NCBI GenBank assembly: GCA_963082975.1
Contig: OY720344.1
Span: 94,431,228 to 94,495,227 of the forward strand
Length of the DNA stretch: 64,000 nt
Source of the DNA: Labia minor
Taxonomy: Eukaryota; Arthropoda; Insecta; Dermaptera; Spongiphoridae
Direction: 5' to 3'
The position numbers were made by a program, and so were the translations under genes. How positions within the stretch are numbered: position 1 is the first letter of the stretch; the number at the start of each line of letters is the position of its first letter. The notes under the pieces are model-generated. The model saw only the letters and a program-made list of their open reading frames with translations, was not told the origin of the DNA and made no database searches. This document shows, one piece after another, positions 12,115-53,364 of this stretch.

Positions 12115-12682
12115 TACTATTGCGATCACGAAAATTGTCGATGTCGAGATTTTGATGTTTTTATACGTTTTGAACGTCCCCGAGTCATTTTCACTAAGGT
12201 TGAGAAAAAATGTTTATGTGTGTATGTAAACAAGATTACGGAAAAACGGTTTGAGCTAGAATAATGAAATTTGGAACACGGGCATCATTCAAAATTCGTA
12301 GTTTTCTATCAAATTTTAAGAAATGTTGCTCTTTCGGAAAAGAGTCATTACCTACTATGTTTTCATTTTATTTCCTCTAAACTAACCGTAAAAATAAAGA
12401 TATACATTTGATATTTTTTCATATAATTAAAAATTGTATAAAACTGCTCTATATAGAATTTCAGCTTGATTGAATGTACTGGAATTAATTTTTTAACACA
12501 TTGACTGGCAATCATGCGCCAGCACGTAACGTGGTGGCATCATCAAAGAGCCAAACGCGCTGGTTTAATATATATTTATCAATTTTAATTTATAATTTAA
12601 TTAATTAAATTTAATTTAAATATAATATATGTGTTTATTAATCCAATTCAAATTGCGAGATAGTCGAGTGGAGACATTCCAG
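12115..12682 (+). mobile_element. HINE (Helentron-like, non-autonomous) copy 1
   Basis: One of ten related copies in the window. The consensus begins ACTATCTCGCC next to a T run and continues 'attgcgatcacgaaaatt' and 'gagattttgatgttttta'. It then has a variable TG/TATG microsatellite and a conserved body ('acggtttgagctagaat', 'atgaaatttgg', 'gtagttttctatcaa'). It ends with GCGAGATAGT, the inverse of the 5' start, plus a hairpin (GGAGACACTCC) and CAG next to another T run. Short asymmetric inverted ends, an internal microsatellite and a 3' hairpin match the HINE/DINE-1 group of Helentron-derived elements. This copy has a reduced microsatellite and lacks the first few 5' bases. Confidence 0.7.
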
Positions 12683-12855
12683 ATTATTTTTTAATCCCGA
12701 AATGTTATAAGATCTAAACCAATTTCAATTAAAAATAATATTTAAATAATTAAAAAAAAATTATCTAACAACCTTTAACAAAATATACGAATGTTCTTTT
12801 TTTTTGTTTAAATTACGAAAATATGTCAAATATAAATAATAAGAGAATATTATAG

Positions 12856-12956
12856 TGAATGTTAAACAAATATTTTATTTACATTTTTCATTATCGCTAA
12901 TTGAAAATGTCGATCAATTGAATTATATTACATTTAAAGCAGACGATTCAACTTTG
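12856..12956 (+). CDS. Weak candidate upstream exon of the receptor kinase gene
   Basis: The frame ending NYITFKADDSTL is followed by a GTATTT donor in phase 0, which is the phase needed by the exon at 13099. An AG precedes it at 12854-12855. The donor is poor, the acceptor lacks a strong pyrimidine tract, and the peptide has no diagnostic residues. It is offered only because the recognised gene model lacks its N-terminus. The real upstream exon could easily be elsewhere or outside the window. Confidence 0.2.
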
Positions 12957-13098
12957 GTATTTAAATATTATTATACCGAGTGGTTAATTTCCGCGGGGGC
13001 AGCTCTTTTATTTGCGTTTGCCCACCAAGAGCTTTGCAAATAGGTCACATTTTGGGTAATGATTAATTCATCCCTCTCTTTTTTCTGTGTTTTTTCAG

Positions 13099-13135
13099 GT
13101 GGCATTCAACTTGAGTGGTGGCGAAATTCACAATG
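13099..13135 (+). CDS. Receptor kinase gene, exon a (first recognised)
   Basis: A T-rich tract and CAG precede VAFNLSGGEIHN. The GTCAGT donor leaves phase 1, matching the next exon to give HNGNNVIHPAP. Phase 0 at entry shows that at least one exon lies upstream. Confidence 0.65.
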
Positions 13136-16100
13136 GTCAGTTCTTATATTTTATTTTTATTTTATTTTTAAAATTTTACCTATTAAAGAATTCATTTATT
13201 GTTTTATTCATATTGTAGCGATTATAATCATAATATAAATATACAAAAAATACAATTTTTATTTTCTTTATATAATTACAAATTGTGCATATAAGTAATA
13301 ATATTACTCATCCAAATCAATTAACATTTTTATAACAAAGATTATAATAAAGACAAATAATATTCATATATCATTGAAATAATTAAATTAATTTTTTTAG
13401 AATTTCAAAGAATACAGAAAATTCCTCATCATGATTGATTTAATAAATGAGCCTCTTAGAAGCCAAACCGATTAACTCCAATTTTTAAAATTTTGCTAAT
13501 AATGTAATGTAATGTAATCTACAACATATGAAGTGAATATTGAACTTGATAATCTTAATAGTGCAATGCAATATACATTTTTCTGTAATCAATATCCCTT
13601 AATACAAACTGTGAACTTTGGGCTTCATTTTCTCAGTTTTTTTCTATGTGGAGTTAATCGCTTTGTCTTCTGAGTGGCCCAAATATATAATATATAATAT
13701 AAATTAACTATCAATTAATTATTTAAGATAATATTTTAAAGAGTATTTTATTAACAAATTCAATGTGTTTTTTAAAATATTTTATCTCGGTATATTTTTG
13801 GAACAGAAAAAAGAGATAAAACCATTAGGAAATAATAAAAAATCATTTTATATAATAAAGTATACATCTATTTGAGTGTTTATTAATTATTTTAAAAACA
13901 ATTTAATTTCTTTTAATTGAAAAAAATTAAGAGACCAGAGAAGTAAAAAGAACCTAGATTTATTAAAATTTATAAATTCCGAAAAACCAATTGGAAAAAG
14001 TCATTTTATGGAGCAATATGAAAATAAACCATCAAGAGAAAGATAAATGAAATTGGGTGGTGAAGATTCGAGATAGATAATTTCAAAGAAAATAGAAAAT
14101 AAATAATTAAATATTCCCCTCTGGTGAAATAGACTTCTTAATTACAGTAAACTCATAAAATCAATCTTTTTTTTATATTTATCATATATTTTTAAATAAT
14201 TTTCACTATAAAAATAATAATTAAAAAAAAAAAATTAAATTAAAAAAGAAAAAAAAATAATTAAATATATAATTAAAAATTTCATTTTATAACTACTAAT
14301 ATCTCAACAAAAATATTTTCTAAAGATAGAGTAAATACCCATATCGAATGTTATATGTGTAAATATGTATTATATAGTTTTTTTTCAACATTTTAAAACT
14401 ATTAGAGAAAATATTAATATAATTTAAAAATAATAAATTTAATAAATGTTATAGGTAAATTACGAAATTAACTATGTTTACTTTATTAAATTATACACAC
14501 ATATATACATTAATATTTAATAACAATCCATTTAATTCAATCACCAATTTGAGGGAATTTATTTTCAGGCAATAATGTCATACATCCAGCACCAGTCACA
14601 GGACTTCATGCAAATGCTGGGGTTAATACCGAGAATAACATCACAATTCAATTTCAGCTTTCTTGGGGACTTAACAGTAAGTATATGTTATCATTTATAT
14701 AATCCTCTGTTTCCCAACCTTTTTCTAGCTCGACTCCTTTTAAACTTACTTCTCATTTAAAAGGACTCTATTTTTGTAGTATTTATAAGTATATTAATAA
14801 TATTTATTAGTACTATGACTATTTAATAGAGTATATTTTTAACGATTTTACAACAAAATAAACATTTTTATTACATTACTCTACATTACATTTATTACAT
14901 AGTTAAGCTAATAGTATAGATCATATTATTTAACAAAACTTACAATTCAATATTTGATAAATTAATAATTTCACAAATAATTAATAGCATTCCTGACTAA
15001 AAAATCTGGAGTATCTCCACCCGACTATCTCGCAAATTTGAATTGAATTAATTAACATATATTATATTTAAATTAAATTTAATTAATTGAATTATAAATT
15101 AAAATTAATAAATAATATTTGTATTAAATTAGCGCGTGTTTGCCTCTTTATTGATGGCACCACGTCACGTGCTGACGCTTAATTGGCAGTCAAGTTAAAA
15201 AATTAATTCCGGTACTTTCAGCGATTCAATCAAGCTGAAATTCTATATATAACAGTTTTATACAATTTTTAATCATGTGAAAAACTATCAAACATATATC
15301 TTTATTTTTACGGTCAGTTTTGAGGAAAAAAACGTGGAAGGTAATGACCCTCTTCCTCCTTTCTCCTTTCTCAAAAGTTAATAAAAAACTATGAATTTTG
15401 AATAATGCCCGTGTACCAAATTTCATTTCAGCTCAAATAGTTTTTCCGTAATCTTGTCTACATACACACACACACACAGACATTTTTCTCAACCTTAGTG
15501 AAAATGATTCAGGGACCTTCAAAACGTATAAAAACATCAAAATTTTGACATCGAAGATTTTCGTGATCGCAATACTATCTCTGGCGAGATAGTAAAAATT
15601 AATATGACAGTTGAAGCTGATATTTTTTAGTAATATTTTTGAGAGTTTCAGGTTTCAATTTTGATTAATAATAAATTTCCCAACGAAACCAAATTATATT
15701 ATAAAAAAATTATTGGAAAATATTAATTTAGAAAAAAATAACTTAATCAAACAAACTATTTACTTTAAATGATATTGTATTTAGATTGAAAATTTAAAAC
15801 AAAAATTCCACTGGTAAGTTCTTAAAAAATACCTTGAAACGTGGACGATTATATGAATATAAAAACTTTAATAAATACTACTACTATGGGGACTTGCAGG
15901 ATCCGTTTGTATTTAATTTATTATTAAGTTTTTATTTAGTAAAGAAATCCTTGACTTTTTGAATATAAGAACTAATCCACCCTCAATACCCCCTCAGATT
16001 CTGCCGACCCTATTCTAAGCTCCATAGACCTCAAGGGGTCCACCTGGACCTCTTTGGGAATCCCTGATTATTTTTTTACATTATTCATAATAATATTAAA

Positions 16101-19100: not shown

Positions 19101-22100
19101 AACATATTATATAATTTTTAACATATTATTAATGTCAAAAAAGTAAATTTAATTAATAGTAAGAGAAAAACTACTTCGTTCTTAGCCATCAAGTTAAGTT
19201 ATCATGTAAATAATAACTTGAATATTTATTTTTTTTTTAATTTTAATTTAATTCATTAGATTTGGTATTTAGTTATTTGATGATATCTTACAGACAATAT
19301 TTAATGTTTCTCAATGTAAAGTCAAAAAAAAAAACTTTTTGATAGATAAATGATAATATTCTAATAAAAATAATTCCTTGAAAAAGTAGTATTATTATTT
19401 ATTAGTTGAAATGAACATTGGCATAAGGTTACTGTCACGTTTATTTTTTATTTATGAGACGTAGGTTTCAGATCTATCAGCTTGTTTATCTCAAATTTGA
19501 AAGAGATAAATATATGAAAGCATTCCAATTATTTATTTTCCATTTAAAATTAATCAATTATAGAATTAGATTGATTAAATAATAACATATATATTTATAA
19601 TTATTTCAAGATTGTTATGTTCAAAATAGAAATAAAAACGCCTGAAAGATATGCAACCATTCCGAAACTACAAGAACAATACAATAATAGTGGGTCCGTT
19701 CGGAAAGTCATTTTTTTTTCCTAAAAATGCAATACCATTTTCGAGTAGTGAATAAGTATTTTATTAAATTATATATTGGGCATTCTGGTCCAAAACCTTC
19801 TGCCATTTTTGAGGTAGAGACAGAATACCACGCATTAAAATCTTTTTTGGTCCTTGTCTTGATTTGAAGTAAAGGTTTTCCGAAACAAATAATAATTCGG
19901 GAAAAAGCGAAATTACTTTCCGAACAACCTAATAGTCAGTAATAGATCATTCCAAATAGTAAAAGTCTATAACCAGCCCACCTTACAATAAATGAATAAT
20001 AGAAATTGTAATTTTGTCGAGAGAATCAGAATTATTTATGCTATTTTTTATAAAATATTTTCTAAGATTTAATAAATTAATATTTATTTATTTGATTAAC
20101 CTTAGGAAAGAGTTTCCAAACTCCTATATTAAATAAATATAATAATTTTATTATTATAAATCTTAATCTTTTTTATTAAAATTATAATGATATTTTTAAG
20201 ATAGAAATGTATTAATATTTGATTTTTATTTTTATTTTTTCAGCACATCACATGGAAACAAAAGTAAGTTAACTATTTACATTGATACTTATTAACTATT
20301 TAAAAAAAAAAACTATACAAATTTATTTTTACAGATTCCTTTATTCATTGACTGGCATTCTAGAATAATTAAAATCATTTTCTCATTAACTTCTGTGATA
20401 ATTTTATGTATAGTAATATTATATTTTTGTCAACCGCATTTATGTATTAAGAAACAACTTCAGTCTTTGAATTACGATGGATCAAGGTATATCCATTTTT
20501 TTTCTTTATGTTTTAATCAAATAAATTGACAAATTATTCAATTAACCTGTTATTCTGTTCTAGTCAATTAAATCCATTATTGAGACTAGCAACAATCGAA
20601 ATGAAGCGAAGTCCTTTATATATCGAAAGAGAAATTGTGGTAAATATATTTATAAATGTTTTAATTATTTGATTTAAATTCTAATCAATATTTATTCATA
20701 AATTTAAAATTTATTTATTCACCCGATTTTTTTGAAATAAAATAAAAATAAAAATACAATTTTCTACTTATAAGAGTGAAGATTTAATACTATTATTATT
20801 ATTATTTTTATTTTGTTTTAAATTAATATATACGATATATATATTTGTTTTCATTTTAGGACGCTCGCAACGCAGGCATAGTAGATGAGTGGGAAATCTC
20901 TCCAAATCAATTAACAATGAGACAAGAGTTAGGCAAAGGTGCATTTGGTCGGGTTTATTTAGCTACAGCTGCTTGTCTTCCATCGTCTCATGGAAAACCA
21001 ATTGAAGTTGCTGTGAAAATATTGGGTGGTAAGCTCTCTCTCTAAATATATCTATTTATATTTATATATTTATAACATACTTTTATGATTAGTTATAATC
21101 TCTGACTTTTGAACATCCTACTCAGGGACAACGCCTATCAAGTTAGTTATATTATATTAATTAGGTAGGTGTTGTATGATCAGTAGAGCGACCCCTATCA
21201 ACCTTTACCTTGATTTTCTTGATCGTAGGCGCTGCCTTTTATCAAGAAGCTTCCCAATCTTGATCCCTGAGGCTTAATTAAAAAAGATAAACATAGGCAG
21301 TTGTGTTTGCAGTTTATGAAATTGCTTATAACTTCTTGTCCTTACCATCCATTCTGCTCCATATTCGGGACAGGATGGATCAAATGACTTAATTAAATGA
21401 TTTGGAATATATTAGAAAATATTTTTTTTTAATTTTAGTAGTACAAGCTTATAATAATGTTTAATAATAATATTAATAATAAATACACTGGAAAATTTGT
21501 AGTTCTTTAAATTAACCTTTTTGTCTTTTTATACCTCATTATCAACTTCTCCCTACCCCCTTCTCTACCACGGTTTTTTTTTAAATTAATAATTATAAAA
21601 TTCTAAAAATAGTGCCATCAGTTGATATTGCTAGTCTAAAGTTGCTATGCTATGATCATTAGCTTTAACATTTATTTATTTTATATTCTGCCTTTATAAA
21701 ACTAGAATATTTATTTATTTATTTGTTTATTTTAATAAAAAATAATGGATTTGTTTTGAATTTTTAGAAAATATCAATGACGATGATGCAAATGACATGC
21801 TTGCTGAGATAGCCATGCTGAAAGCGGTCGGCCAGCACCGAAATGTTATAGCGTTGCTTGGATGTATCACTTTACAGAAACCGTACTGTATTATTTTGGA
21901 ATTGGCACCAGGCGGGGAACTTCTTCGCTATTTAAGAGCACTTAGAGATCAATATGCTGCAATACAAATGAATAACAATATTCGAGGTCCTTGTCATATA
22001 CCAGTCAATTTGATTGACAAAAGAAGATCAAGGTGAAACAATTGATAAATAAAATCATGAACTTGCAACAATGTTGGCCAAAATTTTATGAATTTATTTA

Positions 22101-27072: not shown

Positions 27073-27302
27073 GTCCAAACACCTGAGGTAAATATATTTA
27101 TTATTTTATAATATAAATGAAACTCTCTCTACTCTTAATAAATAAATAAATAATAATTTATTTTTCAGATATTTTATTTTGATTATCAGTATTAATTATA
27201 TTTAAGGAAACTTTTTATATACAAACATATATCAAACAACAGATATGAAAATATTTATTATCTTGTTCTAAACAATTTGCATTTATTCATCTTACAATAA
27301 AA
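27073..27302 (+). other. Kinase-gene 3' UTR with candidate polyadenylation signal
   Basis: AATAAA occurs at 27297-27302. A possible short UTR intron runs from GGTAAATA just after 27087 to TTTTTCAG near 27169. Neither is confirmed by transcript data. Confidence 0.4.
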
Positions 27303-27309
27303 GATATAT

Positions 27310-28800: not shown

Positions 28801-28810
28801 ATTTAATAAC

Positions 28811-29135
28811 CCATTCCTAAAGTGGGCGCCTATACCCCCATGTGGGTACTGCAGCAATCCAGTGCATTTCGGAAAAATTGTTCAATTAATAATTTCTAAT
28901 TTACACCTTTCTTTACTAAATTTTATGAAAAATGTAGAAATATGAATACATAAATATAGTTTTCTGTTTAATTGATATTAAAATTTATAAATAAATTAAT
29001 TTTCACAGGACTCTTAGTAATATTATTTTTGAAAAATGTGGAGGAGAGTAGACCAAATAAGTTTAAGCACCACTGTCCTTAAGGGTTTATTCAGGGCCGG
29101 TTCTAGAATTTTGGGCGCCCCAGCAAAACAAAATT
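28811..29135. mobile_element. hAT-type terminus-like fragments
   Basis: From 28811 the text 'ccattcctaaagtgggcgcc' and near 29060 'aagtttaagcaccactg' look like the two ends of a short hAT element, although no clean 8-bp duplication was found. Directly after, 'cagggccggttctagaattt' followed by 'gggcgcccc' at 29093 looks like the start of another hAT. Both calls rest on terminus resemblance only. Confidence 0.4.
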
Positions 29136-29258
29136 TATCTTTTTTATAATGAATTTAAACAAATATTTTTTCTTAAATCGGCATCTCTCAAAATTTAAAG
29201 TTAATTTAAATCAAATATTTAATCAAAATGAATTATTGATAATGCACAAAAATGGTAT

Positions 29259-29264
<6 letters not shown>

Positions 29265-29294
<30 letters not shown>
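29265..29294. repeat. (TAA)n microsatellite
   Basis: About ten consecutive TAA units. Confidence 0.9.
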
Positions 29295-29295
<1 letters not shown>

Positions 29296-30953: not shown

Positions 30954-30995
<42 letters not shown>

Positions 30996-34035: not shown

Positions 34036-34125
34036 TTATTGATTAAGCTAATAATAAAATTACAGTAAGTTTATACCTTCATCAAGTCAATTTCTATATT
34101 AGATAGTTTCAATAAATTCTATAGA

Positions 34126-34880: not shown

Positions 34881-34882
34881 TA

Positions 34883-36478: not shown

Positions 36479-36559
36479 TCTCTTAAATAAAACTCTTGCA
36501 TTTAATTTTTAATTTTGTCACCATTTTTAATTTAAATGCAAGCGTTTTATTTGAGAGAT
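36479..36559. repeat. Short imperfect inverted repeat
   Basis: The arm 'ttctcttaaataaaactctt' plus gcatttaa is mirrored by ttaaatgcaag plus 'cgttttatttgagaga', separated by about 18 bp. It would form a hairpin of about 30 bp. No target duplication was seen. Confidence 0.55.
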
Positions 36560-36574
36560 CCCTAGAAAATTAAT

Positions 36575-39500: not shown

Positions 39501-40702
39501 TACTTTTATTTTAAACTACAAAAATAAAACTTCTTTTTTTTTAAATTTTATTGTAGTTTTATAACATTTTATAAGTAGATTTATTAAGTGAGCTTAATAA
39601 AATTAATACGGATATTGATCAATGATTTATTTTTATTATTTTTGAGTAAATAATTATTTCAATCGCTGATAGGTAAATAAATATTTATTGTCTAAAACAA
39701 TTCCTTATATTTAAATGTTTAATAAAGTTTAATACTATTAGTAGTATTACCTAAAATACTGAAGTTAAATGAATTGAAATAATATTCATGAAATTAAAAC
39801 TTTATTCTTGTTGGATATTGATTTTTATAGTATATTATAGTATAGAGTAAATATTTTATAATAATAGTATATAAACTTTTTTGTCTCTTAGTGCACTTGA
39901 TAATTTAAGAATTCATTTTAACAAATTTACTTTAAATTTGCTCATTGTATATTTCTTATAATAAACACACATAAATAATTATTATAACTATTATAATAAA
40001 TTTTATTTAAAATAGGGTAAACGTACCCGTAGTTGACTAAGTAATTGACCATTTGATAGAATTTTCATTAAAATAAGCTTTTTAATTTCAAATTAAGCGT
40101 CCAATTTAAGAGACCAATCGCTGCATTTGAAATAGAATTGTGAATCTTTTAAAACACCAGGTAAGCGTTCTTGCATTTTAAGGTTAGATTTTTAAGCAAA
40201 ACGTTAATGATATGCTTCACTTTATTTTCAATAGATTATGTTTTATTTAATATTAATTTCATACCAAAAGTTCAATTCAATAGTTGATACTACAAATTAT
40301 ATTAATCAATTTAATATATTTTCTTAATATGAACATTAACATATATCAAGAGGGTGGCTCATTTCAGAAACAAATATCACATTTTTTTTTAGAAATTGAC
40401 CGGGGGGGGGAAGGGGTCCATTCCTTAAATATTCATATTAATATAATAATACATTTCTTTTATTAAATTTATTTATTATTTAAATATGGAAAAAAGAAAG
40501 AATAATTACAAATGATTAAAAATAAGCAGTTTTAGAGGCAAGAAGAATCCCAGAAATCTGCGGTAAATAATTTGGATATTACTATTCTGGAATTTTGTAA
40601 AATAATAAAATTAATAATTCCAAACGGTTTTTTTATATTTAGAATGTTTGCGTTCATAATTTATAATTAAAATGATTTTTATAAAGTTGAAAACTTAATT
40701 AA
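36575..40702. other. Long AT-rich stretch, nothing firm
   Basis: Four kilobases with no convincing exon or transposon. A slightly GC-richer patch near 37760-37880 (cgaagtcgatcacgtag, gtcgatcgcgcatgg) and a G8 run near 40403 are the only departures from A/T-rich filler. Confidence 0.5.
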
Positions 40703-41249
40703 TATCTCGCCAGAGATAGTATTGCGAAAATTTTCGATGTTGAGATTTTGATGTTTTTATACGTTTTGAAGGTTCCTCAGTCATTTTCACTAAGGATGAG
40801 AAAAATGTCTGCCTGTGTGTGTGTGTAGACAAGATTACTAAAAAACGGTTTGAGCTGGAATAATGAAATTTGGTATATGGGCATTATTCAAAATTCGTAG
40901 TTTTCTATCAACTTTTCAGAAATGTAGCTCAACTGAAAGAGGGTCATTACCTACCACGTTTTGATTTTGAAGTGACCGTAAAAATAAAGATAATATGTTT
41001 GATAGTTTTTTACACGATTAAAAATTGTATAAAACTCAGTTTGATTGAAACGCTGAAAGTACCGAATTAATTTTTTAACACGTTGACTGTCAATCACGCT
41101 CCAGCAAGTGACATGGTGCCATTAGTAAAGATTCAAACACGCGCTGTTTTAATAAATATGTTTTTTTAATTTTAATTTATAATTAAAATTAAAATTAATT
41201 AAATTTAATCCAATTGAAATTGCGAGATAGTCGTGTGGAGACACTCCAG
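40703..41249 (+). mobile_element. HINE copy 3
   Basis: Begins tatctcgccagagatagt and ends 'gcgagatagtcgtgtgg' with hairpin and ccag. The TG tract is short. A few bases of the 'gatcacg' block near the 5' end are missing. Confidence 0.75.
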
Positions 41250-41870
41250 CTTATTTTTTATTAGGTATAATAGTAATAAGTTGATCTTGTTAATAATGAA
41301 ATAAAGAAAAAAATTTTTTTTTTTAAAATTAAAATTAAGTGTATATTCCTGTATCATCTTAATCCAACCCAGATGTGTATAAATACCCTCCAATTCAATT
41401 ATTTATTATTTTATTTGTTAAATGTTAATGTTTGTTTGATTTATAAAGGTAATTAAATTAAAAGAAAGCTAATAAAATTATAAATTGAGTATTACATCAT
41501 CTTTAATTATCTTGGAAAATTATGTTACATCTAACAACAAACAATCAATTAAATGACAAAACATGATACCAGAATCAAAGTTTTCATTAATTGAAATTAT
41601 ATGGTAAAATCAATTTTACTCTTTGCACTTACTCTCTCCAAATCTCGCTAACACCCTCTCCCTCTCACACATTAACACACACTCTTTCTTTTCTCTTCAC
41701 TCATTTATTGGATTGTACCACTCTCAATTGGGAAAATGCCGCTGATCGAGACCAAATAGAATGGTTTTTATTTATCAAATAACTGATATACAAAGTTCTT
41801 TATATTCTTTGTGTTAAATGAATAATAATTATATTTATTTAATTATCTTTCTTTCTCATATTCTTTGCAG

Positions 41871-41986
41871 AACTTTATTCTCTTGTACAAACAGTTAATT
41901 TAGTTGATATAAACAACAGAATTCATGTAAACGGCAGATGGCAACCATTAAAGGATCCATGTCGAAGTTGTTCAAGAAATTCAAAA
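41871..41986 (+). CDS. Candidate exon, von Willebrand C-like
   Basis: A strong pyrimidine tract and TTTGCAG precede a frame open only in phase 1: ELYSLVQTVNLVDINN, then RIHVNGRWQPLKDPCRSCS. The G-x-W-x-P-x-x-D-P-C-x-x-C pattern is the core of von Willebrand type C domains found in extracellular matrix and BMP-binding proteins. The expected C-x-C is reduced to one Cys here. The 3' boundary is uncertain: GTTCAC after 41986 is in phase 0 but weak, and GTAAAC inside the exon would cut it short. No partner exons were found. Confidence 0.4.
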
Positions 41987-42062
41987 GTTCACTTTTTTGT
42001 TTTATTTAGCTTTCTTTATAACTCGATTAAAAAAAAAAATAAATAAAAGTTTAGTAATTTTT

Positions 42063-42230
42063 ACAAGAGATAGTATTGCGATCACGAAAATTTTCGATGT
42101 CCATGTGTGTGTAGGTATGTATGTAAACAAGATTTGAAAGGTTTGAGCTAGTATAATGAAATTTGATACAGGAGCATTATTCAAAATTCCTAGTTTTCTA
42201 TCAACTTCCGGATATCCAGATTTTTTTCTT
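42063..42230 (+). mobile_element. HINE copy 4, truncated
   Basis: Only the 5' half remains ('agagatagtattgcgatca' to 'gtagttttctatcaac'-like text), with the 'gagattttgatg' block deleted. It lies about 190 bp upstream of full copy 5 in the same orientation. Confidence 0.65.
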
Positions 42231-42420
42231 ATATCTAAAGAGTGGGACAATCTGAATCCAGTTTGACTATTTAAAAATAATATTAAATCTATATATATAT
42301 ATATATATATATTATTTATAATTTTTATAAGTATGTACTTAAATCCTTTTTAAAATCCCGAATTTTCAAAAAACCGATTTAAAATATACCTAGAGATAGA
42401 TTATTTGAAAGTTGTTTATT

Positions 42421-42531
42421 ACTATCTCGTAAGAGATAGTATTGCGATCACGAAAATTTTCGATGTTGAGATTTTGATGTTTTTATACGTTTTGAAGGTT
42501 CCTGAATCATTTTCACTAAGGTTGAGAAAAA

Positions 42532-42577
<46 letters not shown>

Positions 42578-43029
42578 GACAAGATTACGCAAAAACGGTT
42601 TGAGCTAGAATGATGAAATTTGGTACATGGACATTATTCAAAATTCATAGTTTTCTATCAACTTTTGAGAAATGTAGCTCAACCGGAAGAGGGTCATTAC
42701 CTACAACGTTTTGATTTTTTTTCCTCTAAAGTGACCGTAAAAATAAAAATATATGTTTGATAATTTTTCATATGATTAATAATTGTATAAAACTGCTATA
42801 TATAGAATTTCAGCTTGATTGAATTGCTGAAAGTACCAGAATTAATTTTTTAATACTGCAAATCTCACGCCCCAACACGTGCCATGGTGCCATCAATAAA
42901 AAGCCAAACATGCGCTGGTTTAATATTTATTATTTATAATTTATAATTAATTAAATTTAATTTAAATATAATATATTATGTTATTTAATCCATTTCAAAT
43001 TGCGAGATAGTCGAGTGGAGACACTCCAG
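42421..43029 (+). mobile_element. HINE copy 5, full length
   Basis: Complete from actatctcg to the 3' hairpin and ccag, with a long TG/TATG tract near 42535-42575 and T-rich DNA on both sides. It is one of the best copies for defining the family. Confidence 0.8.
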
Positions 43030-44546
43030 CTTATTTTTTTATTTTATTTACTTTTCGTTAATTTATTAATATTGTAAAAAAATAATTACACTTAAGTATA
43101 TTATTTTTCTTAAATTTACATTTTTATTTGAAATTGTATAGCTCTAGTACTCTAGTATATAACTATAATAAATTAATTAATTTAAATAGATTTTTTTCTT
43201 ATATGATGTAGACTTGTAGACCAATTTTAATATTCGATAAAACTTATCCGAGGCATGTATATGAAAAGACGGTTAAAAGAATTGATTAATGAATATATTT
43301 TAACAATTTTTTCCAGTAAACCACTCATAATCCTCATTCCCAAATTTATTCTATTTATTAAATTTTATACCTTCATTAAATTTAAAGTTGTATGATATGC
43401 TCTTTAATTTATCTAAAAAAAATTGTATCTTATAAATGTAATTTAATCCATTGTTTTTCTAAATAACTAATACTAATAATTGTTTTTTCTTCAAATAAAA
43501 TGATTTGTTTAATTTAATTTTGAGTAGGGCATTTATATATGCAAAAGGTTTAACAAACTCACCCCACTCCCCTTCTAATACAATAAAATATTAATTAAAT
43601 AGTGAGGCTTCTATAGACCTCTTTATGTTTATATGGGTCAAAAAGTCATGATGAATACAACACTAAAGTTCAGTTGATTTTAAATTATATTAATATAATA
43701 TATATATTTATATTTATATATACTGATATTTTTTTATACTCCCCCTATAACATATTTACATTTTAATTAAAAATATTAAAATAATACACATATATTAATT
43801 GTAAATAATAGTATAAACGTAAAAAGGAAAATATATACCAATTTGCATTGCATAATTAAAGCTAATTTCTTTCTTATATTTGTATTTTAAATAATTATTA
43901 GTTAGAACATTTTAATTTCCTACTGAAAAATAGGAACACTATTAATTATAATAATAATTTTTCTATTCTGAAATTGTTCATTAAAAAAAATGTACTAAAG
44001 AAATATTTATTAGTAAAACAATACTTTAATCAAATCTGAAATATGATAATTTAATTTCTAAGATATTCCTCTCTGGTCATGCAATCAATCCTTCATTCGA
44101 TCTCAGAATAATAGACTGACGATTCGTGAATGTTGATTAGATCTGTTCAACTAATATCTAACAGATCAATATTATGGAATCATCTGGGATGACTCGTATC
44201 TCTGACATAGACCACCCACTCATAAGCAGTTGAATCTTTATTAACTTATTATCATACTTGTATTAAAATAAGATAATAACGATAATTGAATGATAAACTT
44301 TATTGATAATTACTTAAGCAAAAAATTTTGTGTTTAATTCAATAGTAAAACAAAACTCAATTTAGCATACTCTTTTATTGGATAATTGAATTTTTTTTAA
44401 CATATTAAACATCTACAAAGCGGAGATAGTTTGTCTAGTTATTAATTAAACTTATCATTTATTTATTGTATGTATATGCCATGCGTTATATATATGTGTA
44501 TAAAATAGTAGAAGAGTATTTATTAAAGCTTTTGTGGTTATTTTGA
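43030..44546. other. AT-rich stretch, nothing recognised
   Basis: A/T-dominated sequence without an exon, RNA gene or repeat end that could be supported. Confidence 0.55.
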
Positions 44547-44807
44547 TAATTATTAAGAGAATTTTTATTAAAAGACCACATTATTTGTATAAAATTATTT
44601 ATTAAATTAAAATAATTGTACAACGTTTCAACTGCTTATTCTGCAGTCGTTTTCAAGCGTTTTCAAGCGGACCGAATCGGAGCAAGCGTACGGTTACTTG
44701 AAAACGACTGCAGAATAAGCAGTTGAAACGTTGTACAATTATTTTAATTTAATAAATAATTTTATACAAATAATGTGGTCTTTTAATAAAAATTCTCTTA
44801 ATAATTA
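44547..44807. repeat. Perfect 111-bp inverted repeat with CGTTTCAA ends facing a 39-bp loop
   Basis: The arms 44547-44657 and 44697-44807 are exact inverses of each other. Each arm carries, next to the loop, TTGAAAAC, a hairpin (actgc with gcagt) and TTGAAACGTTG. This is the motif arrangement seen singly at 2618 and 5548. The loop is GC-richer (gcggaccgaatcggagcaag). Perfect identity over 111 bp of AT-rich DNA implies a young or converted structure, or a folded-read artefact in assembly. Confidence 0.9.
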
Positions 44808-45072
44808 GTAGAAGAGTCTTGATTTTTATGAGTGTATTTGTAAAGTTCGCGAAATGAAATACAAAGTATCAATTCAATTAAAAAATAGGGCCAACTGACT
44901 TGAGCATAATGTTTATATTATATTATTAATAAATTTTAAATCGTTTCGTTAGGTTTATCAGGTGGTTGGTAGGTCTATTTGGATTAAAACTGCCAGAGAA
45001 GGAAAATTTGTCAAGAGCGTCTAAACCACTTTAACTAAAAAAAAGGATTTTATCCCACGATTTATTACAGAG

Positions 45073-45258
45073 ATGAAACTTAAAGTTACTATTATAGACC
45101 TGAGAAGATTTTTCACGGAAGGCAGTTTTTTAAGTTATTTTAGAGGCCTTGCCGAATCACTCTCGTGTTGGCATAATGGCTCTGAAGCGAAATGGATTGA
45201 ATTTAAAGGAGAGTATCTGGAACACCGAGCTATCGCTCGACCCTTTAAAAAATATTGA
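45073..45258 (+). CDS. Short open frame of unknown origin, possibly a transposase tail
   Basis: A 61-codon frame from ATG reads MKLKVTIIDLRRFFTEG and ends with AKWIEFKGEYLEHRAIARPF. Upstream text in the same frame (TTLTKKKDFIPRFITE) is interrupted by a stop. The W-x-x-x-x-G-x-Y-x-E end loosely recalls the C-terminus of mariner-type transposases, but the spacing is off. It could also be an exon, since TTATTACAG precedes the ATG. I do not recognise the family. Confidence 0.25.
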   Translation: MKLKVTIIDLRRFFTEGSFLSYFRGLAESLSCWHNGSEAKWIEFKGEYLEHRAIARPFKKY

Positions 45259-45840
45259 TATACAATTATTTAATAATTTATTACAATTATTAAATGTTAC
45301 ATCATTGCATCAATCTGATTAAAATGAATGGAACTTGGGGTCCTCAATAATAATAAATAATAAATAATATTTATTTTAATAAAAGAACAATGAATAAATA
45401 AATATAAATGAGTAATTTAATAAAAATTAAACAAGAAAATAGATAAATGAAAAACATAAAATTGACTTATAAAAAATTATAAGAATTAACAAAAAATTAA
45501 ACGACAAAAAAAATTTCAAATATTTCAGAGAAAAAAATAACAATACTTACCATGTTTGCAAGACAATTACCAAGCCGTATTTGTTTTTGTTTTTTGAGAG
45601 ATTAATAACTATATATATTTTATTAAAATAAATATTTTTAATTTTATTTCGAAATTAAATAATAAATTTTAAAATATTTTAAATATAAAAAAATATGAAT
45701 ACAATATCAATTAAAAAAAATTGGCAAGAGGCAAATTTCAATATGGATAACGTCGTTCGAGCGATTAATTAATAAATTAATTAAAAAATATACAAATATA
45801 TATACATACTAGTTTTGCTAATATATATAATAAGTTTAAA
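45259..45840 (+). repeat. Dispersed repeat family B, copy 1
   Basis: Aligns with 62300-63110. Shared anchors are 'gttacatcattgcatcaatc', 'aatgaatggaacttggggtc' and 'aaaagaacaatgaataaata', followed by similar A-rich text and 'atcaattaaaaaaaa'. The 3' end (gcgattaat, caaatatatatac, ttttgcta, tata) matches the end of family A, so the two families share a 3' module. No open frame. Confidence 0.65.
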
Positions 45841-46058
45841 GGAGATAAAGGAGATTAAGTTGAAAAATAATATATATTTCAGAAAATATTTTTTCATTTT
45901 ACGAACTTTTCACATACTCTCGAATATTTTTTTATTTTTCAATTTTAAATTATCGTTTAAATTAAATTAAATTATTATTTTATACGATCTAATGAAAAAC
46001 AATTCAATTTAAAATTTTGTAGCGAAAACAGAAAAAAAAAATTCATGTCTCACATTTT

Positions 46059-46157
46059 TACTATCTCATCAATTGCGATCACGAAAATAAATATTATTTA
46101 TTAATTTTAATTTATAATTTATATAATTAATTAAATTAAATTTAAATATAATATATG
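46059..46157 (+). mobile_element. HINE copy 6, internally deleted
   Basis: The 5' text 'tactatctca' and 'ttgcgatcacgaaaat' is fused directly to the AT-rich 3' subterminal part 'aatttaaatataatatatg'. The whole body and the 3' hairpin are absent. Confidence 0.6.
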
Positions 46158-46570
46158 ATTGACTCAATAAAATGAAATAAATATTTATTCATACCATCAG
46201 TTATACATATTTTCAATTTTTAAAATATTAAGTTTTTATTTAATATTCATAATTCTTACTAAGTATTTAATCCTGAAATAAAAACATTTATTAATTGGAG
46301 TTTTTATCTGAATTTTTTATTTGTATCATGGGACATTTTTTAAATAACAGTAAATACATTAGTTTCCTAAACATTTCTTTTCTATCTTTTGCTGGTAGTT
46401 GATTTTTTTACTGGCTTCTCAGATAAACAACTTCTAATCTCTTGGGGGATAGGTGGCCTCTTTTTTTCATTTTATCACCTTTCGAATATTATTTACCAAC
46501 AGAGAATAAAAATAAAAATAATACAATATCTGTAATCTAATCATATATTTGATGGTCTTTCTGTTTTAAC

Positions 46571-46597
46571 AAAAAAAAAAAAAAAAAAAAAAAAAAA
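46571..46597. repeat. Poly-A run of 27
   Basis: An uninterrupted run of 27 A. It is not tied to a recognised retroelement upstream. Confidence 0.9.
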
Positions 46598-46844
46598 CAA
46601 TGACAAGAGATCTCTTTTATCAATAACAAATTTACTTTCTCTTGTGTTTATATACGCACAATTTATACCTAGGTAGCATAGTTTTTTGTTTCTTTATTTG
46701 TAAAAAACTAAAAACATAAAAATCAATACCATCACAATTCATCCATAAAATAAACATGTTTACTTTATTTTTATATCTATTCCCATTTATTTTTTTAAAA
46801 ACTCAGTTATTATATAAATTAACTGGAGTGTCTCCATTAGACTA

Positions 46845-47667
46845 CAGTAGAAGTCGATTAGTCCGGCTTCCAACAGTCCGGAATGCCCAATAGTCCGGCA
46901 TCGCTCCGGAAAATTGTAAAAATTTTGGTTTTCTTCAAAAGTGTGTCTTTAAAGCAAATAAAAACGCTCGAGAGCTATTCCCCTTTTGTGATAGGTAAAT
47001 CTTCAAAACCCAGGGCTTTTAAGAATGCACACTTGCCAGTTCAATACTATACTCAAACAAATGCGTGGATGACTGCGTCCTCTTTAAAGACTGTTTTTTT
47101 CACCATTTTGTGCCTGAACTGAACTTTGAATCCTTCAAAAGCCTTGGTCTACCACTAGATACTAAAGCCATCCTTCTTTTGGACAATTGCAAAGCTCACC
47201 TGCCAGTAGATGAGTTAGTTTGTGGGAATATTGTTGCTACTCTGCTCCCACTTAACATAAAATCTTTGATTCAACCCATGGACCAAGGGGTTATACAAAA
47301 TTTTAAATGCTTTTATAGAAGGTCTTTTATTCAAGGCCTGTTAAATGACTACTGTGACTAGCTACAGTGCTTCAGAAAAATTATTGATTTCCATATCATT
47401 AGAAATAAATTTTATACTAAACGCCAAAAGTCAAGAAAACAAAAAGACATTCGTGACTTTTTTAAATCAAAGTGAAATATTTTTTACAGTACGTGTACAT
47501 ACATTATATGAAATGTAAGATAAACTTTGTTGTATGTATTTGCATACTGTATTTTTAGTTTAATTATTAACCTAAAAGTTCTTATAATTACCGCCCGATA
47601 ATCCGGAATTTCCGATAATCCGGCACCGAGCCGGTCCCGAACGTGCCGGATTATCGGACTTCTACTG
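46845..47667 (+). mobile_element. Tigger/pogo-type DNA transposon, internally deleted
   Basis: Inverted ends cagtagaagtcgattagtcc and ggattatcggacttctactg, with TA duplicated at both edges (46843-46844 and 47668-47669). The size is 823 bp against about 2-3 kb for complete Tigger elements, so much of the transposase gene is missing. Subterminal ATCCGG and GTCCGG repeats line both ends. Confidence 0.88.
46883..47361 (+). pseudogene. Tigger transposase remnant (DDE domain)
   Basis: Two overlapping frames remain. The second gives [20 protein letters not shown], which holds the DNCxAH catalytic block. It continues [20 protein letters not shown] and [15 protein letters not shown], the standard Tigger/jerky DDE ending with the last acidic residue in MDQG. 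The DNA-binding half and the first catalytic Asp region are absent. Confidence 0.8.
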
Positions 47668-48098
47668 TATCTCGCAATTTAAATTGGATTAAATAACATA
47701 ATATATTATATTTAAATTAAATTTAATTAATTATAAATTAAAATTAATAGATAATATTTATTAAACCAGCGCATGTTTGGCCCTTTGTTGATGGCACCAC
47801 GTCACTTGTTGGAGTGTTGCAGTGTTAAAAAATTAATTCTGGTACTTTCAGCGATTCAATCAAGCTGAAATTCTATATATAGCAGTTTTATACAATTTTT
47901 AATCACGAGAAAAACTATCAACATATATCTTTATTTTTACGGGCACTTTAGAGGAAAAAAATCAAAACGTAGGTAATGACCCTTTTCCGGCTGAGCTACA
48001 TTTCTCAAAAGTTGACACAAAACTACGAATTTTGAATAATGCCTATGTTCCAAATTTCATGATTCTAGCTCAAACCGTTTTTGCGTAATGTCGTAACG

Positions 48099-48540
48099 CA
48101 GAGGTTCTTAAACTGTGGTCCGTGGACCCCTGGGGGTCCGCAAAGCCATCGTACAGGTGCACGAGAAAATTATGAGTCAGTTAAAACTTTATTTAATATA
48201 AAAGGAGCGATGGCATGGCTTTGTGAGGAAACAGAGATCAAATACCCAAATTCAACGAAATGTGCAAGAAAACTATTGCTACCGTTTCCATCTTCATATT
48301 TAGCTGAATTTTCTTTCTTCAATATTATAATTTCTAATAAAATGTGTTCTACAATATGCAAAAAAATCGTCATTCACCAATCACTGTTAGAAGTATTCAT
48401 CATATATCCTTGTTCTTATGAGATCGTAAGCCAGAAATTAACTAATAAAATGACGCAAAGTACCTAAAGTTGGGATGGGGTCCGTCAAAAAAATTTTTTC
48501 AAATGGGGGTTCGCGGAGTACAAAAGTTTAAGAACCTCTG
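48099..48540 (+). mobile_element. hAT DNA transposon remnant, nested in HINE copy 7
   Basis: Inverted ends cagaggttcttaaactgtgg and caaaagtttaagaacctctg are bracketed by an exact 8-bp duplication tcgtaacg (48091-48098 and 48541-48548), the hallmark of hAT. A plus-strand frame carries KCARKLLLPFPSSYLAEFSF, the C-terminal dimerisation region of hAT transposases. The element is 442 bp, so only the end of the gene survives. Confidence 0.9.
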
Positions 48541-49026
48541 TCGTAACGTAACGTTTTGTCTACATACATACATACATACATACCCACACACACAGATGGC
48601 GAGATAGTAAAAAATATACCTAGAAATAGTTTTTTATCTAATATTAAATAAAGAAAATGATTTTCAATTCAATTAAGATTCATTTTATTATATTATATTG
48701 ATACAATCATGAATCAATAAATAATTATTTATAAATGAACATTGATTAAATATTTATTCGTTAATTTATATTATATATATATAAGAATATATGCTATTCT
48801 AAACATAAAAACAAAAATATTAGAGAACATTTAATGAAAAATAAATTTATGTTTATTTCCGATTGTTTCAAACGAACATGTGCTTACATTTAAGACGAGA
48901 AAGAATAAAAAACATACTGAAGTGCATGAACCTATACACTCCTACAAATAATATAAGTAATGAAAAACACTAACAATATAATTATATAGTTGTATTGTAA
49001 TTGTAATGTAATTATACATTTTTTTT

Positions 49027-49541
49027 TACTATCGATGTCGAGATTTTGATGTTTTTGTACGTTTTGAAGGTTCCTGAGTCATTTTCACTTAGGTTGAAAA
49101 ATGTGTGTGTGTGTGTGTGTGTGTATGAATGTATGTATGTATGTATGTATGTAGACAAGATTACGCAAAAACGGTTGGTACTAGATTAATGAAATTTGGT
49201 ACACATGCATAATTCAAAATTCGTAGTTTTCTATCATTCTCATTCGGAAGATGACCATTACCTACCACGTTCTATTTTTTTCCTCTAAACTGACCATAAA
49301 GATAAAGATATATGTTAAGTAGTTTTTCACATGATTAAAATCTGTATAAAACTGCTATATTGAATCACTGAAAGTACCGGGATTAATTTTTAACACTGCA
49401 AATCAAAAGCCAAACACGCTGGTTTAATAAATATTATTTATTAATTTTAATTTACAATTTAATTTTAATTTAATTTAATTAAAATATAATATATGTTAAT
49501 GCAATTCAAATTTGCGAGATAGTCGAATGGAGAATCTCCAG
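49027..49541 (+). mobile_element. HINE copy 8
   Basis: Lacks the first bases of the 5' end (starts tactatcgatgtcgag) but keeps a TG/TATG tract near 49105-49150, the body and the 3' hairpin (gagaatctcca in place of the usual gagacactcca). Some body blocks are deleted. Confidence 0.72.
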
Positions 49542-49544
49542 ATT

Positions 49545-51370
49545 TTTTAATTAAATAAAGTTATAAATTTATTATTTATTATGCCTTAAAAGGTTTAACC
49601 ATCTGTCTTCCATCCTATTTCCAAAGATATTAGGCAAATAATTATTGTTAACTATTGACAAATTTTTATTGTTCTTGCTTTACCTTCATTCGCCTACATA
49701 TTGTTTATATAATACATTGATCGTAATTTTTTTATTCAGACATGTAAATTTTTTTAAAATTCTTTATAAGAAATACCACAATTGCTTATAAAAAATTATC
49801 TGCAGGTTTTTGATGCCTAATTATTGGACAACACTCACCCGATTGTTTAAAACGAACATGTTCGTAAAAGGTGGCATTTGATTATTTTCTAGTTTGTTGC
49901 TCGTATAAATAGTTGTTAAATTGTGTGATAAATCTTAAGAAATAGACTTTGCGATCCTATTTTACTTAGAAAGCAATATCACTGCAAAAATATATTCTAC
50001 TCTTGGTTTGGTCCAAATTTCGATGTCAAAGATGCACTACGCTATTGACAAGTCAAAAAATTGATAAAATTTTTCAACAAACGGCATAGTTAAAACATAA
50101 ACCAGATGACAGTTTTCAATCATTTGGAAAGAGGTTATATAAAGAAGCTCGATGGTAACTTTTTATATAACCCAATATAATTAATTAATGAAAAAGATGA
50201 TGTTCTATAACTATGAATAATTACTTTTTCCTTTAAAATTAAAATCTATAATTTTTAGAACATCTCTAACTAGAAAGTTAATATCACTTTCCGAAAAGGG
50301 ATGTTTTGATCTTCTAATTTAAAAATTTAAATTAGTTCCTATTTAATTATTTCAACTATATTAAGGTAGCATTAATTTGCACATTTTTTACGATCTGCTT
50401 TTATTATAAAAATAATTTTTTTAAGTCAATTTTTTTTATTATCAATTAGTAATGAAAATGCGTCTTTATATATATATATATATAGTTATATAATACTCTA
50501 AATACTAACATATAAACTGATATAAACGGATTAAAGGAGAAATATGATAAGGAAACGTTTTTTTACTGTATTTTTTTTTTCTCAAAATGTATATATCTTT
50601 TATGTAAATATAGGAAAATGTATATTTCAAGCCCCAAAGTTAGGGACGGGAAAACATAATAAATTAATATTCTATCTTGAGATTACGGAATGATCCAAAA
50701 AAGGGGCTGCCGTGATTGACTATTTGTTATTCTCTGAGCGTAAAAGGGCTTTCCTTCAACAGCCTCGTGTTCGTCCTCTTTTTGTCATTTTCATGATTAT
50801 ATATATATATGTAAAATATTTATAGTTACCTCTACCTACTTATATCACCCTCTAGCGGACATCTAATTACTCATTTATTATTTATCTATTTATATGTGTT
50901 ATCGACATTTAATTTACTCATTTTATTATTTATCCATTTGTATATATTTTATTTATAAACTTGTATAATAATTTAAAAGAAATAAACTTGAAAATTAATT
51001 TGTAAAATAATAACAACAGAATTTATTATATCCAAAAAGGAATAATTAATTTTCAAGTATTTTACATATATATAAACCTAAACTTATAATAATTTATTTT
51101 TTATCTTTTTTTATCTTGTTTTACTATTAAAACTTCGTCAATGATGTTTTTTTATAACAATTTTTAAAAAATAAGCATTTAAATACTATAAATAATGTGA
51201 TAATATAAATTGGTTTTGTATTTTATTTCACATAATTGATTTATAATTCTAATTGGGTTGAGAACCCATATTATAAAATCTAAAAGTACTCTCAATGCAC
51301 TAGTTTTTTTATTTTTTCAATATGTCTTTTATATAAAAATATAAAATTTTATGTGACGATTTTACTTTTT
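49545..51370. other. Mostly AT-rich stretch, nothing firm
   Basis: Two patches are less AT-rich: 49850-50160 (frames interrupted by stops, vaguely transposase-like) and 50690-50790 (gattgactatttgttattc, ggctttccttcaacagcctc). Neither could be assigned. The rest is A/T filler with short (AT)n runs. Confidence 0.45.
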
Positions 51371-51373
51371 TTT

Positions 51374-51978
51374 TACATCTCGTTTTGCGATCACGAGAAT
51401 TTTCGATTTCGAGATTTTGATGTTGTTATACGTTTTGAAGGTCCCTGAGTCATTTTCACTAAAGTTGAGATGTATCTCTCTCTGTGTGTGTGTGTATGTG
51501 TATGTGTATGTAAACAAGATTACGCAAAAACGGTTTGAGCTAGATTAATGAAATTTGGTACACGGGCATTCAAAATCGTAGTTTTCTATCAACTTTTTAG
51601 AAATGTAGCTCATTCGGAAGAGGACCATTACCTGCTACGTTTTCATTTTTTTTTCCTTTAAACTATCCGTAAAAATAAAGATTTATGTTTAATAATTCTT
51701 CACATGATTAAAAATTGTATATAAAACTGCTATACATAGAATTTCAGTTTGATTGAATCGCTGAAAGTATCGGAATTAATTTTTTAACACGTTGACTGTC
51801 AATCACTCGCCAGCACGTGACGTGGTGCCATCAACAAAGAGCCAAACACGCGCTTGTTTAATAAATATGATTTATTAATTTTAATTTATAATTTAATTAA
51901 TTAAATTTAATTTAAATATATAATATATGTTATTTAATCCAATTATATTTGCGAGATAGTCAAGTGGAGACACTCCAG
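51374..51978 (+). mobile_element. HINE copy 9
   Basis: Starts tacatctcg and 'ttgcgatcacgagaatttt'. It has a CTCT/TG tract near 51475-51510 and runs complete to 'gcgagatagtcaagtgg', the hairpin and ccag. Confidence 0.78.
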
Positions 51979-51979
51979 A

Positions 51980-52718
51980 TTTCTTTTTAAAATCCTATGC
52001 TTCAATAATGAGTTTGTGAATTTCTCGTGAATTGAAACTAGCTGTCGGAAAAGCTTAAGTTGCAACTCGTTAGGATGTAGAAAGATAGGTTAAGAGGAGA
52101 TAGGTAGTGTAATGGAGAACAATAGGTTGAGATTAGCCTTTGTGTATTGATCTCATAAATAACTATCTCCACTCGACAAAATGGAAAATAATACAATCTA
52201 CCGCCCCTTAAAGAGAGAGATAACTTATCAACGAGTAAAATATATAATACTTCATCTGGTTCAGATTATTTTAATATTTAATTGAAAATTTAATTATGTT
52301 ATTTTTCTTACAAATACTCAAAATAATATAATTCAATTTAATAAAATTCTCTAAGATTATGTTTTTAAAATAAAAAAAAATACATATAATAAAATCAAGA
52401 GTTAACTTTAGACATATATTTTTTCAAAATATAAACAAAAAAACAAAACAAACATCTTTACTTAACATTGCTTTAATCTCTTGTAAAAACTGGTTGAGCG
52501 GGCAATTGTTTTTTACGCTAAAAAACTTTATATAGTATATCTCAAATATAAATAAAGTTTTTGTCTGTACGTTGCTTGGAAATTCAATTTTTTTTATCTA
52601 TCTTTACTCTTCCCAGACTGGAGAATATAAATATTTTGTTTTAAATTTTACATGTTTTTTCTAGTGATATTGTGATTAAATACCTCGATTTTATTATGAA
52701 TAACCTTTATAGTATTTT
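51980..52718. other. Non-coding stretch between HINE copies 9 and 10
   Basis: AT-rich. A patch at 52010-52160 (gctgtcggaaaagcttaag, ggttaagaggagatagg) is less so but gave no match to a known family. Confidence 0.45.
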
Positions 52719-52850
52719 TACTATCTCGCCAGAGATAGTATTGCGATCACGAAAATTTTCGATGTTGAGATTTTGATGTTTTTATACGTTTTGAAGGTTC
52801 CTGAATCATTTTCACTAAGGTTGAGAAAAATGTCTGTGTGTGTGTATGTA

Positions 52851-52911
<61 letters not shown>

Positions 52912-53364
52912 AGACAAGATTACGCAAAAACGGTTTGAGCTAGAATGATGAAATTTGGTACATGAGCATTATTCAAAATTCGTAGTTTTCTATCAACTTT
53001 TGAGAAATGTAGCTCAACCGGAAGAGGTTCATTACCTACAACGTTTTGATTTTTTTTCCTCTAAAGTGACCGTAAAAATAAAGATATATGTTTAATAATT
53101 TTTCACATGATTAAAGATTGTATAAAACTGCTATATATAGAATTTCAGCTTGATTGATTCGCTGAAATTACCAGAATTAATTTTTTAACACTGCAATTCT
53201 CACGCGCCAACATGTGACGTGGTGACATCAACAAAAAGCCAAACATGCGCTGGTTTAATATTTATTATTTATAATTTATAATTAATTAAATTTAATTTAA
53301 ATATAATATATTATGTTATTTAATCCAATTCAAATTGCGAGATAGTCGAGTGGAGACACTCCAG
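52719..53364 (+). mobile_element. HINE copy 10, full length
   Basis: The cleanest copy. It has the 5' palindrome 'actatctcgccagagatagt', a long TG tract (about 52833-52910), the full body, subterminal AT-rich text and the 3' end 'gcgagatagtcgagtgg', hairpin and ccag. The open frame of repeated Thr-His over the CA strand of the tract is an artefact of the microsatellite. Confidence 0.82.

Follow-up and report, generated by a model that had tools for sequence, protein, structure and literature searches.

A HINE-like repeat family of Labia minor shares both of its ends with a Helentron of the same genome

We analysed a 64-kb stretch of the Labia minor genome (contig OY720344.1; C1:94431228-94495227; genome 604,477,936 bp in 71 contigs), hereafter the window, which contains ten copies of one repeat family. 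The copies are almost certainly non-autonomous elements of the HINE type, which arose by deletion from a Helentron (an endonuclease-encoding rolling-circle transposon) of the same genome. A Helentron located elsewhere on C1 shares with the family the 5' end, including the microsatellite and the body, as well as the 3' subterminal inverted repeat (subTIR) and the 3' palindrome, and it probably moves the HINEs in trans. The HINE/Helentron interpretation, put forward in an initial annotation made from the window alone, is supported by the copy number, by insertion at T-runs and by the Helentron that carries both ends. These results tie a very numerous orphan repeat to a rolling-circle partner in the same genome that bears an open reading frame (ORF) with an uninterrupted Rep-helicase frame, and the pairing makes trans-mobilisation testable.

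Copies and structure of the family

BLAST of copy c10 against the window, a repeat finder and a copy alignment together located ten members of a single family, of which two lie at 12.1 and 15.0 kb and the other eight within 40.7-53.4 kb, confirming the number and clustering given in the initial annotation (Table 1). The alignment took nine of the ten copies and omitted c7, which is split. As had also been stated, the copies range from full length (c2, c5 and c10) to internally deleted (c3); c4 and c6 are reduced further, to short remnants. The identity of the long copies to c10 extends from 72% (c8) to 91% (c5), a spread that speaks against one single burst. Copy c7 is interrupted by two later insertions and is therefore older than both; from its terminal inverted repeat (TIR) we take the one at 46845-47667 to be Tigger/pogo-like, and the one at 48099-48540 is presumably a non-autonomous hAT-like element.

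A full-length copy consists, in order, of Ts, the palindromic 5' subTIR ACTATCTC-GCCA-GAGATAGT, a conserved block, a TG/TATG tract, the body, an AT-rich stretch, GCGAGATAGT, the short palindrome TGGAG-ACA-CTCCA, and Ts again. The copy alignment bears out the position of the TG/TATG tract behind the conserved 5' block and its variable length. The 3' GCGAGATAGT is the exact reverse complement of ACTATCTCGC over 10 bp, in agreement with the claim that the 3' end is the inverse of the 5' start, and the two are palindromic subterminal inverted repeats of the kind expected of HINEs and Helentrons. In addition, the 5' motif on its own forms a palindrome of 20 nt, a feature absent from the initial annotation, and folds as DNA into an 8-bp hairpin (-5.9 kcal/mol, z -4.4).

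The end motifs are enriched in the window relative to shuffled sequence: ACTATCTCGCC with up to 2 mismatches was found 20 times against 3.4 expected, GCGAGATAGT with up to 1 mismatch 13 times against 0.8, and GGAGACACTCC with up to 2 mismatches 12 times against 1.5. The proposal of a shared 5' start is confirmed, though the exact 11-mer ACTATCTCGCC occurs in only three of the ten copies (c2, c7 and c10). The 5' hairpin is damaged in c1, c4, c6, c8 and c9, and c4 and c6 are without the 3' subTIR and hairpin block.

Table 1. Positions of the HINE copies, of c10 modules, of the insertions in c7, and of the Helentron copies and protease domains. Coordinates are those of the window unless a contig or locus is given.
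Feature	Position	Strand	Remark
HINE c1	12110..12692	+	5' hairpin lost (TTTTTTACTA then TTGCG); 3' end GCGAGATAGT...GGAGACATTCC
HINE c2	14999..15598	-	full length, 5' end exact
HINE c3	40697..41260	+	full length, internal deletions
HINE c4	42066..42215	+	fragment; most of body and 3' block gone
HINE c5	42417..43044	+	full length; 91% to c10
HINE c6	46056..46165	+	about 110 bp left; 3' block gone, 5' hairpin damaged
HINE c7	46816..48612	-	split by two later insertions
HINE c8	49020..49547	+	72% to c10, most diverged long copy; 5' hairpin damaged
HINE c9	51360..51986	+	5' subTIR damaged
HINE c10	52715..53372	+	full-length reference copy
c10 palindromic 5' subTIR ACTATCTC-GCCA-GAGATAGT	52720..52739	+	DNA fold
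c10 TG/TATG microsatellite	52831..52911	+	length varies among copies
c10 3' subTIR GCGAGATAGT	53337..53346	+	reverse complement of 5' start
c10 3' palindrome TGGAG-ACA-CTCCA	53351..53363	+	sequence
Insert in c7, TA at 46843-46844 and 47668-47669	46845..47667	.	sequence
Insert in c7, 15-bp TIR CAGAGGTTCTTAAAC, 8-bp target-site duplication TCGTAACG (48091-48098, 48541-48548)	48099..48540	.	sequence
Helentron copy 1 (L042+L043)	C1:47862605-47874777	-	12,173 bp; both HINE ends
Helentron copy 2	C1:44694773-44699771		99% to copy 1 over 5 kb
C48/Ulp1-like domain (sub-threshold), HINE partner	L042:2395-3060	-	
OTU domain (above cut-off), related Helentron	L060:2149-2898	+	

Insertion sites

HINEs inserted at the T-run of another HINE were sought genome-wide as ACGTTTTGAT followed, after 1-12 bases, by ACTATCTCGCC, a pattern found at 56 places and at none in the control. 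Twelve such nested loci were read, corresponding to 11 distinct ones (L050 and L051 overlap and were counted once). In six of the 11 (L047, L052, L053, L054, L055 and L056) the host HINE resumes in register past the inner 3' end. The total number of Ts is 9-11 at the nested sites, compared to 8 in 17 of 18 uninterrupted matches (overlapping loci included), indicating that an insertion brings in 1-3 extra Ts with no other duplication. The added Ts may be part of the element or a T-only duplication, since the data fit both; the same ambiguity is described by Thomas et al. (PMC4067079).

Fourteen copies were scored at both flanks. At least 2 Ts lie on both sides in all 14, six of which had been chosen at a T-run through the nested pattern, and beyond the Ts the flanks match over 0 nt in nine copies and 1 nt in five, which is the insertion pattern that the initial annotation had asked for as support. 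The left flanking base is T in all 14, the left boundary being Ts followed by ACTATC, and neither the 5' TC terminus nor the A/T insertion of canonical Helitrons was seen. The last four bases before the 3' Ts are CTAA in 11 copies, CTTA in two and another sequence in one. The hairpin lies about 1 nt from CTAA in the HINEs, and about 11 nt from the CTRR terminus in Helitrons (PMC4067079).

Among the first eight 5'-end loci (L001-L008), three did not receive a score at both flanks, owing to a degenerate 3' hairpin in L001, the lack of a 3' end within the stretch of L006, and a distance of more than 800 bp between the ends in L008. In the window, c2, c5 and c10 (3/10) passed the strict two-end test. 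L048, L057 and L058 gave no strict 3' end match. L052, L056 and, in L053, the first HINE were passed over because their final 25 flanking bases are identical to those of a row already taken. The window repeat at 45245-45720 and 62283-63084 does not span c6, and thus provides no empty site.

Two arrangements were seen among the nested loci. L050/L051 holds a tandem HINE array of segments 1-335, 1-335 and 1-652 without right halves, which possibly reflects rolling-circle tandems truncated at the 3' side, or nested insertion followed by loss. At L053:1515-2787, two full HINEs stand head to tail through TTT, both inside a third HINE.

Genome-wide abundance

Tens of thousands of end matches were counted; the initial annotation had asked for thousands of copies as support. 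The exact 5' 11-mer ACTATCTCGCC occurs at 8,872 + 9,053 = 17,925 sites in the whole genome and its backwards control at 16 + 15 = 31, and the 28-nt 3' end, which holds the palindrome, occurs with up to 3 mismatches at 18,279 + 18,657 = 36,936 sites and its control at 0. The 28-nt criterion catches seven of the ten window copies, and a rough extrapolation from this one window gives about 53,000 copies genome-wide. The genome share is estimated at about 18-26 Mb, roughly 3-4% of 604 Mb, taking about 0.5 kb per copy from the window copies; the description of the family as a major part of this genome was therefore too strong.

The window does not stand out in HINE density: 7 3' ends were caught, compared to 3.9 expected per 64 kb (Poisson P about 0.10). 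Clustering is seen among the first 100 exact 5' ends listed for C1 (variance/mean 1.9 per 64 kb), with a maximum of 3 in any 12.7 kb. The 40.7-53.4 kb patch contains only 2 exact 5' ends, so that it is not demonstrably unusual, damaged copies not being countable alike. Among the matches listed, no exact HINE 5' end falls in about 600 kb (C1:1783376-2398017) of a region that is dense elsewhere, and a similar gap is seen on C1 among the exact 3' ends listed (1854276-2428030).

Outside this genome, no HINE match was found in the phages or plasmids searched, no exact match to the end motifs in viral contigs, and none to the 5' motif in GTDB genome contigs. A literature text search with the 5' 11-mer returned only papers unrelated by title, and one with a body 14-mer returned none.

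A Helentron with both HINE ends

A profile search with PF14214 (Helitron_like_N) gave at least 104 matches in the genome. Among 30 Rep loci fetched, 23 carry RGLPH (Helitron type), four RGSPH (Helentron type) and three neither; the S in RGSPH is a published Helentron signature (PMC4067079). A Rep/helicase Helentron that shares both HINE ends, as the initial annotation had called for, was found around one further Rep frame, at L042+L043 (copy 1). HINE nt 1-564 aligns to the first ~745 bp of copy 1 in two BLAST pieces, both at 91%, a region that contains the microsatellite and a 204-bp internal duplication, and the last bases of copy 1 are identical to HINE nt 609-653 (45/45).

ORFs of at least 60 aa were listed across copy 1. 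One uninterrupted ORF of 2,181 aa matches DUF6570 (45.5 bits), Helitron_like_N (84.6 bits) and PIF1 (109.8 bits) above the Pfam cut-offs and contains RGSPHEH, SYVLKY, Walker A and B, GDFN and YHKP, among which are presumed catalytic motifs. In a phmmer search against solved structures, the helicase region matches PIF1 helicases and Helraiser. The endonuclease stretch lies at the expected C-terminal place, holds GDFN and YHKP, and reaches E 5.7e-5 on a 200-aa piece, below the Pfam cut-off. It is about 35-40% identical to many short frames across the genome, which are presumably endonucleases of non-LTR retrotransposons.

Copy 2 has the same 3' end as copy 1 up to the final Ts, and the two diverge one base past the shared Ts. 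A further copy, on contig C60, has the same start and HINE-like block, followed by the same ~100 bp of Helentron-specific sequence under a different 5' flank. C60 also bears, about 22 kb away on the same strand, a piece of the ORF at 99%.

Side observations concern two other parts of this material. The repeat at hel 3663-3800 in the 5' region of copy 1 (L043) has 98-99% copies at at least 39 other places, and is possibly another transposon or a shared promoter region. In addition, the RGLPH frames L015-L023, on several contigs, have near-equal scores, seven of the nine spanning 1,651-1,655 aa, which suggests recent activity of a canonical Helitron.

A putative C48-like domain at the end of the partner protein

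After the endonuclease, the partner protein ends in about 200 aa that weakly match Peptidase_C48, the match covering 34 aa around the cysteine at 19.6 bits, below the cut-off of 20.7. The best solved relative of this part is SENP8 (E 0.0044, residues 67-190 of a 222-aa piece), and GHW...IFDS...QQNNYDCG is present. Two broken copies with stops and frame changes, L044 and L059, keep HW and QQNNYDCG; L044 has IFNS instead of IFDS. The related Helentron L060, also of this genome, whose endonuclease shares about 38% identity with that of the partner, has an OTU domain at the same place (38.4 bits, cut-off 23.3) and no match to the C48 part.

On balance we favour the view that the DUF6570-Rep-helicase-endonuclease polypeptide of the partner ends in a Ulp1/SENP8-like C48 domain replacing OTU, that Helentrons swap OTU, VTD and C48 with the function kept, and that this lineage may act on NEDD8 or SUMO. 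Published Helentrons carry OTU and VTD, and Ginger1 carries OTU or Ulp1, so that the C48-like domain, judged from one lineage with sub-threshold profile scores, seems to be one more exchange of an already known type. Among the excerpts of the literature searched (including PMC2836005, PMC3212892, PMC9741609 and PMC6431247), none describes a Helentron-C48 fusion, although this negative carries little weight. The alternation of C48 and OTU is relevant to the question of why rolling-circle transposons retain proteases of ubiquitin-like modifiers.

Weighing the alternatives

A number of observations weigh against the reading of the family as HINEs derived from this Helentron. At the insertion sites, five of the 11 distinct nested loci (L048, L049, L050/L051, L057 and L058) yielded no right half of the host HINE, and the prevailing CTAA also fits the Helitron CTRR. 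The whole 3' end, whose palindrome is short, gives no significant fold as single-stranded DNA (z -1.3 and -1.5). In the partner protein, Exo_endo_phos_2 stays below the Pfam cut-off of 27.4 (19.0 bits with the full ORF, 23.4 bits in a piece), and a phmmer search of a 220-aa piece against solved structures found no endonuclease. No RPA gene was seen in a search that was not thorough, in which the main ORF and two small ORFs were scanned against Pfam. As for the Helentron itself, copy 1 carries the high-copy repeat at hel 3663-3800; copy 2 has no 5' end, a different Helentron (about 67%) abutting there; and the C60 copy was read at its 5' end and at its ORF piece, but not in the stretch between them.

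The ends match inversely over 10 bp, and DINE-1-like elements were formerly called miniature inverted-repeat transposable elements (MITEs; PMC2374699, PMC4067079), so that the copies could be regarded as short terminal-inverted-repeat elements moved by a DDE transposase. However, the inverted repeat lies short of the 3' terminus, the scored copies lack a constant target-site duplication such as a DDE element would leave (flanks beyond the Ts matching over at most 1 nt, and six nested sites in register), and the ends are common with a Rep/helicase element. We consider a MITE extremely improbable. Neither of the signs that the initial annotation had named as contrary to a HINE, a consistent target duplication and a partner with a DDE transposase, was encountered: the scored copies lack the former, and the partner located is of the Rep/helicase type, though DDE elements with these ends were not searched for. 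Descent from a canonical Helitron with an RGLPH-type Rep, instead of a Helentron, would agree with the 23 RGLPH loci among the 30 fetched and with the CTRR-like 3' end of 11 of the 14 scored copies, but RGSPHEH and endonuclease motifs occur in the element with both ends, all 14 scored copies have T and not A as the left flanking base, and the exact 5' 11-mer is absent from the 1.5-kb flanks of RGLPH-type elements, the sole part read. Such a descent deserves almost no weight.

The relation between the family and this particular Helentron could be doubted in two further ways. A truncated, unrelated HINE that came to lie beside the Helentron by chance might account for the HINE 5' sequence ahead of the 2,181-aa ORF, given that copy 1 has about 3.6 kb, including another repeat, between the HINE-like 5' part and the ORF, and that copy 2 lacks the 5' end. 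This is very unlikely, as C60 repeats the 5' end, the junction and the next 100 bp under a different 5' flank, part of the following sequence (hel 3534-3657) adjoins the ORF in copy 2, and copies 1 and 2 have the same 3' ends. Alternatively, the family may now be moved mainly by another Helentron lineage, in line with the further long RGSPH-type open frames (L034-L037) and the 1,754-aa Rep-helicase frame of L041. None of the four end motifs that were searched lies in the 10-kb stretches around L039/L040 and L041, and these lineages were rejected as the partner, although such stretches may miss parts of an element; cross-mobilisation of this kind appears improbable. The reading as HINEs of the L042+L043 Helentron is thus retained: the family is ordinary in kind, and the HINE/Helentron pair is well supported.

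Other features of the window

A perfect inverted repeat of 111 nt with a 39-nt spacer (44547-44807; 100% complementary) is possibly a young foldback or MITE. Positions 53593-54463 are bounded by 141-nt inverted repeats (90% match) and, with transposase-like fragments inside, presumably represent a mariner-like remnant. The 597-aa open frame at 9627-11417 (+) is presumably a non-LTR reverse transcriptase and that at 6012-6578 (-) a mariner-type transposase, and the exon-like frames at 21746-22033 and 25812-26120 (+) seem to resemble a receptor tyrosine kinase.

Proposed mechanism and comparison with known systems

In the mechanism that we propose, the Rep-helicase-endonuclease protein of the partner would recognise the shared HINE ends in trans and nick in the flanking Ts, one strand would be peeled off from the 5' hairpin to the 3' palindrome, and the single-strand copy would be pasted between Ts elsewhere. 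The HINEs would thus have retained both ends and lost the ORF. Thomas et al. proposed that the endonuclease cuts a T-run indiscriminately (PMC4067079), which the variable T number at the sites fits.

The family resembles the HINEs of the mite Metaseiulus occidentalis and of Culex (Thomas et al. 2014, PMC4067079) in its palindromic subTIRs, 3' palindrome, microsatellite, T-rich target without duplication, and origin as deletion derivatives of a Helentron with an RGSPH Rep and PIF1. It differs in the inverted match of the subTIRs, which is 10 bp compared to 12-15 in the mites, and in its partner, which has a sub-threshold endonuclease, no RPA seen, and a C48-like end. DINE-1 of Drosophila (PMC2374699, PMC4067079) likewise has subTIRs, a microsatellite, a 3' stem-loop, a TT preference and a high copy number, whereas its 13-bp subTIR, separate inverted repeat and own core contrast with the palindromic subTIRs described here. 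The end matches of the window family outnumber the 334-6,297 DINE-1 copies per species, although the criteria differ. Cg_HINE of the oyster Crassostrea gigas (PMC7492417) has a similar module layout and a T-rich target without target duplication; it contains satellite-like tandem arrays, in place of which the window copies have only the TG/TATG tract.

With respect to the protease, Ginger1 (PMC2836005) carries OTU or Ulp1, but not both, at the C-terminus of its transposase, whereas it is of the DDE/integrase type, with an unrelated transposition mechanism. Helentrons with an OTU or VTD deubiquitinase (PMC9741609) are closer, having a thiol protease for ubiquitin-like modifiers within the Rep/helicase/endonuclease protein. 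In contrast to these, the partner described here ends in a putative C48/Ulp1-like domain, and its relative in the same genome has OTU.

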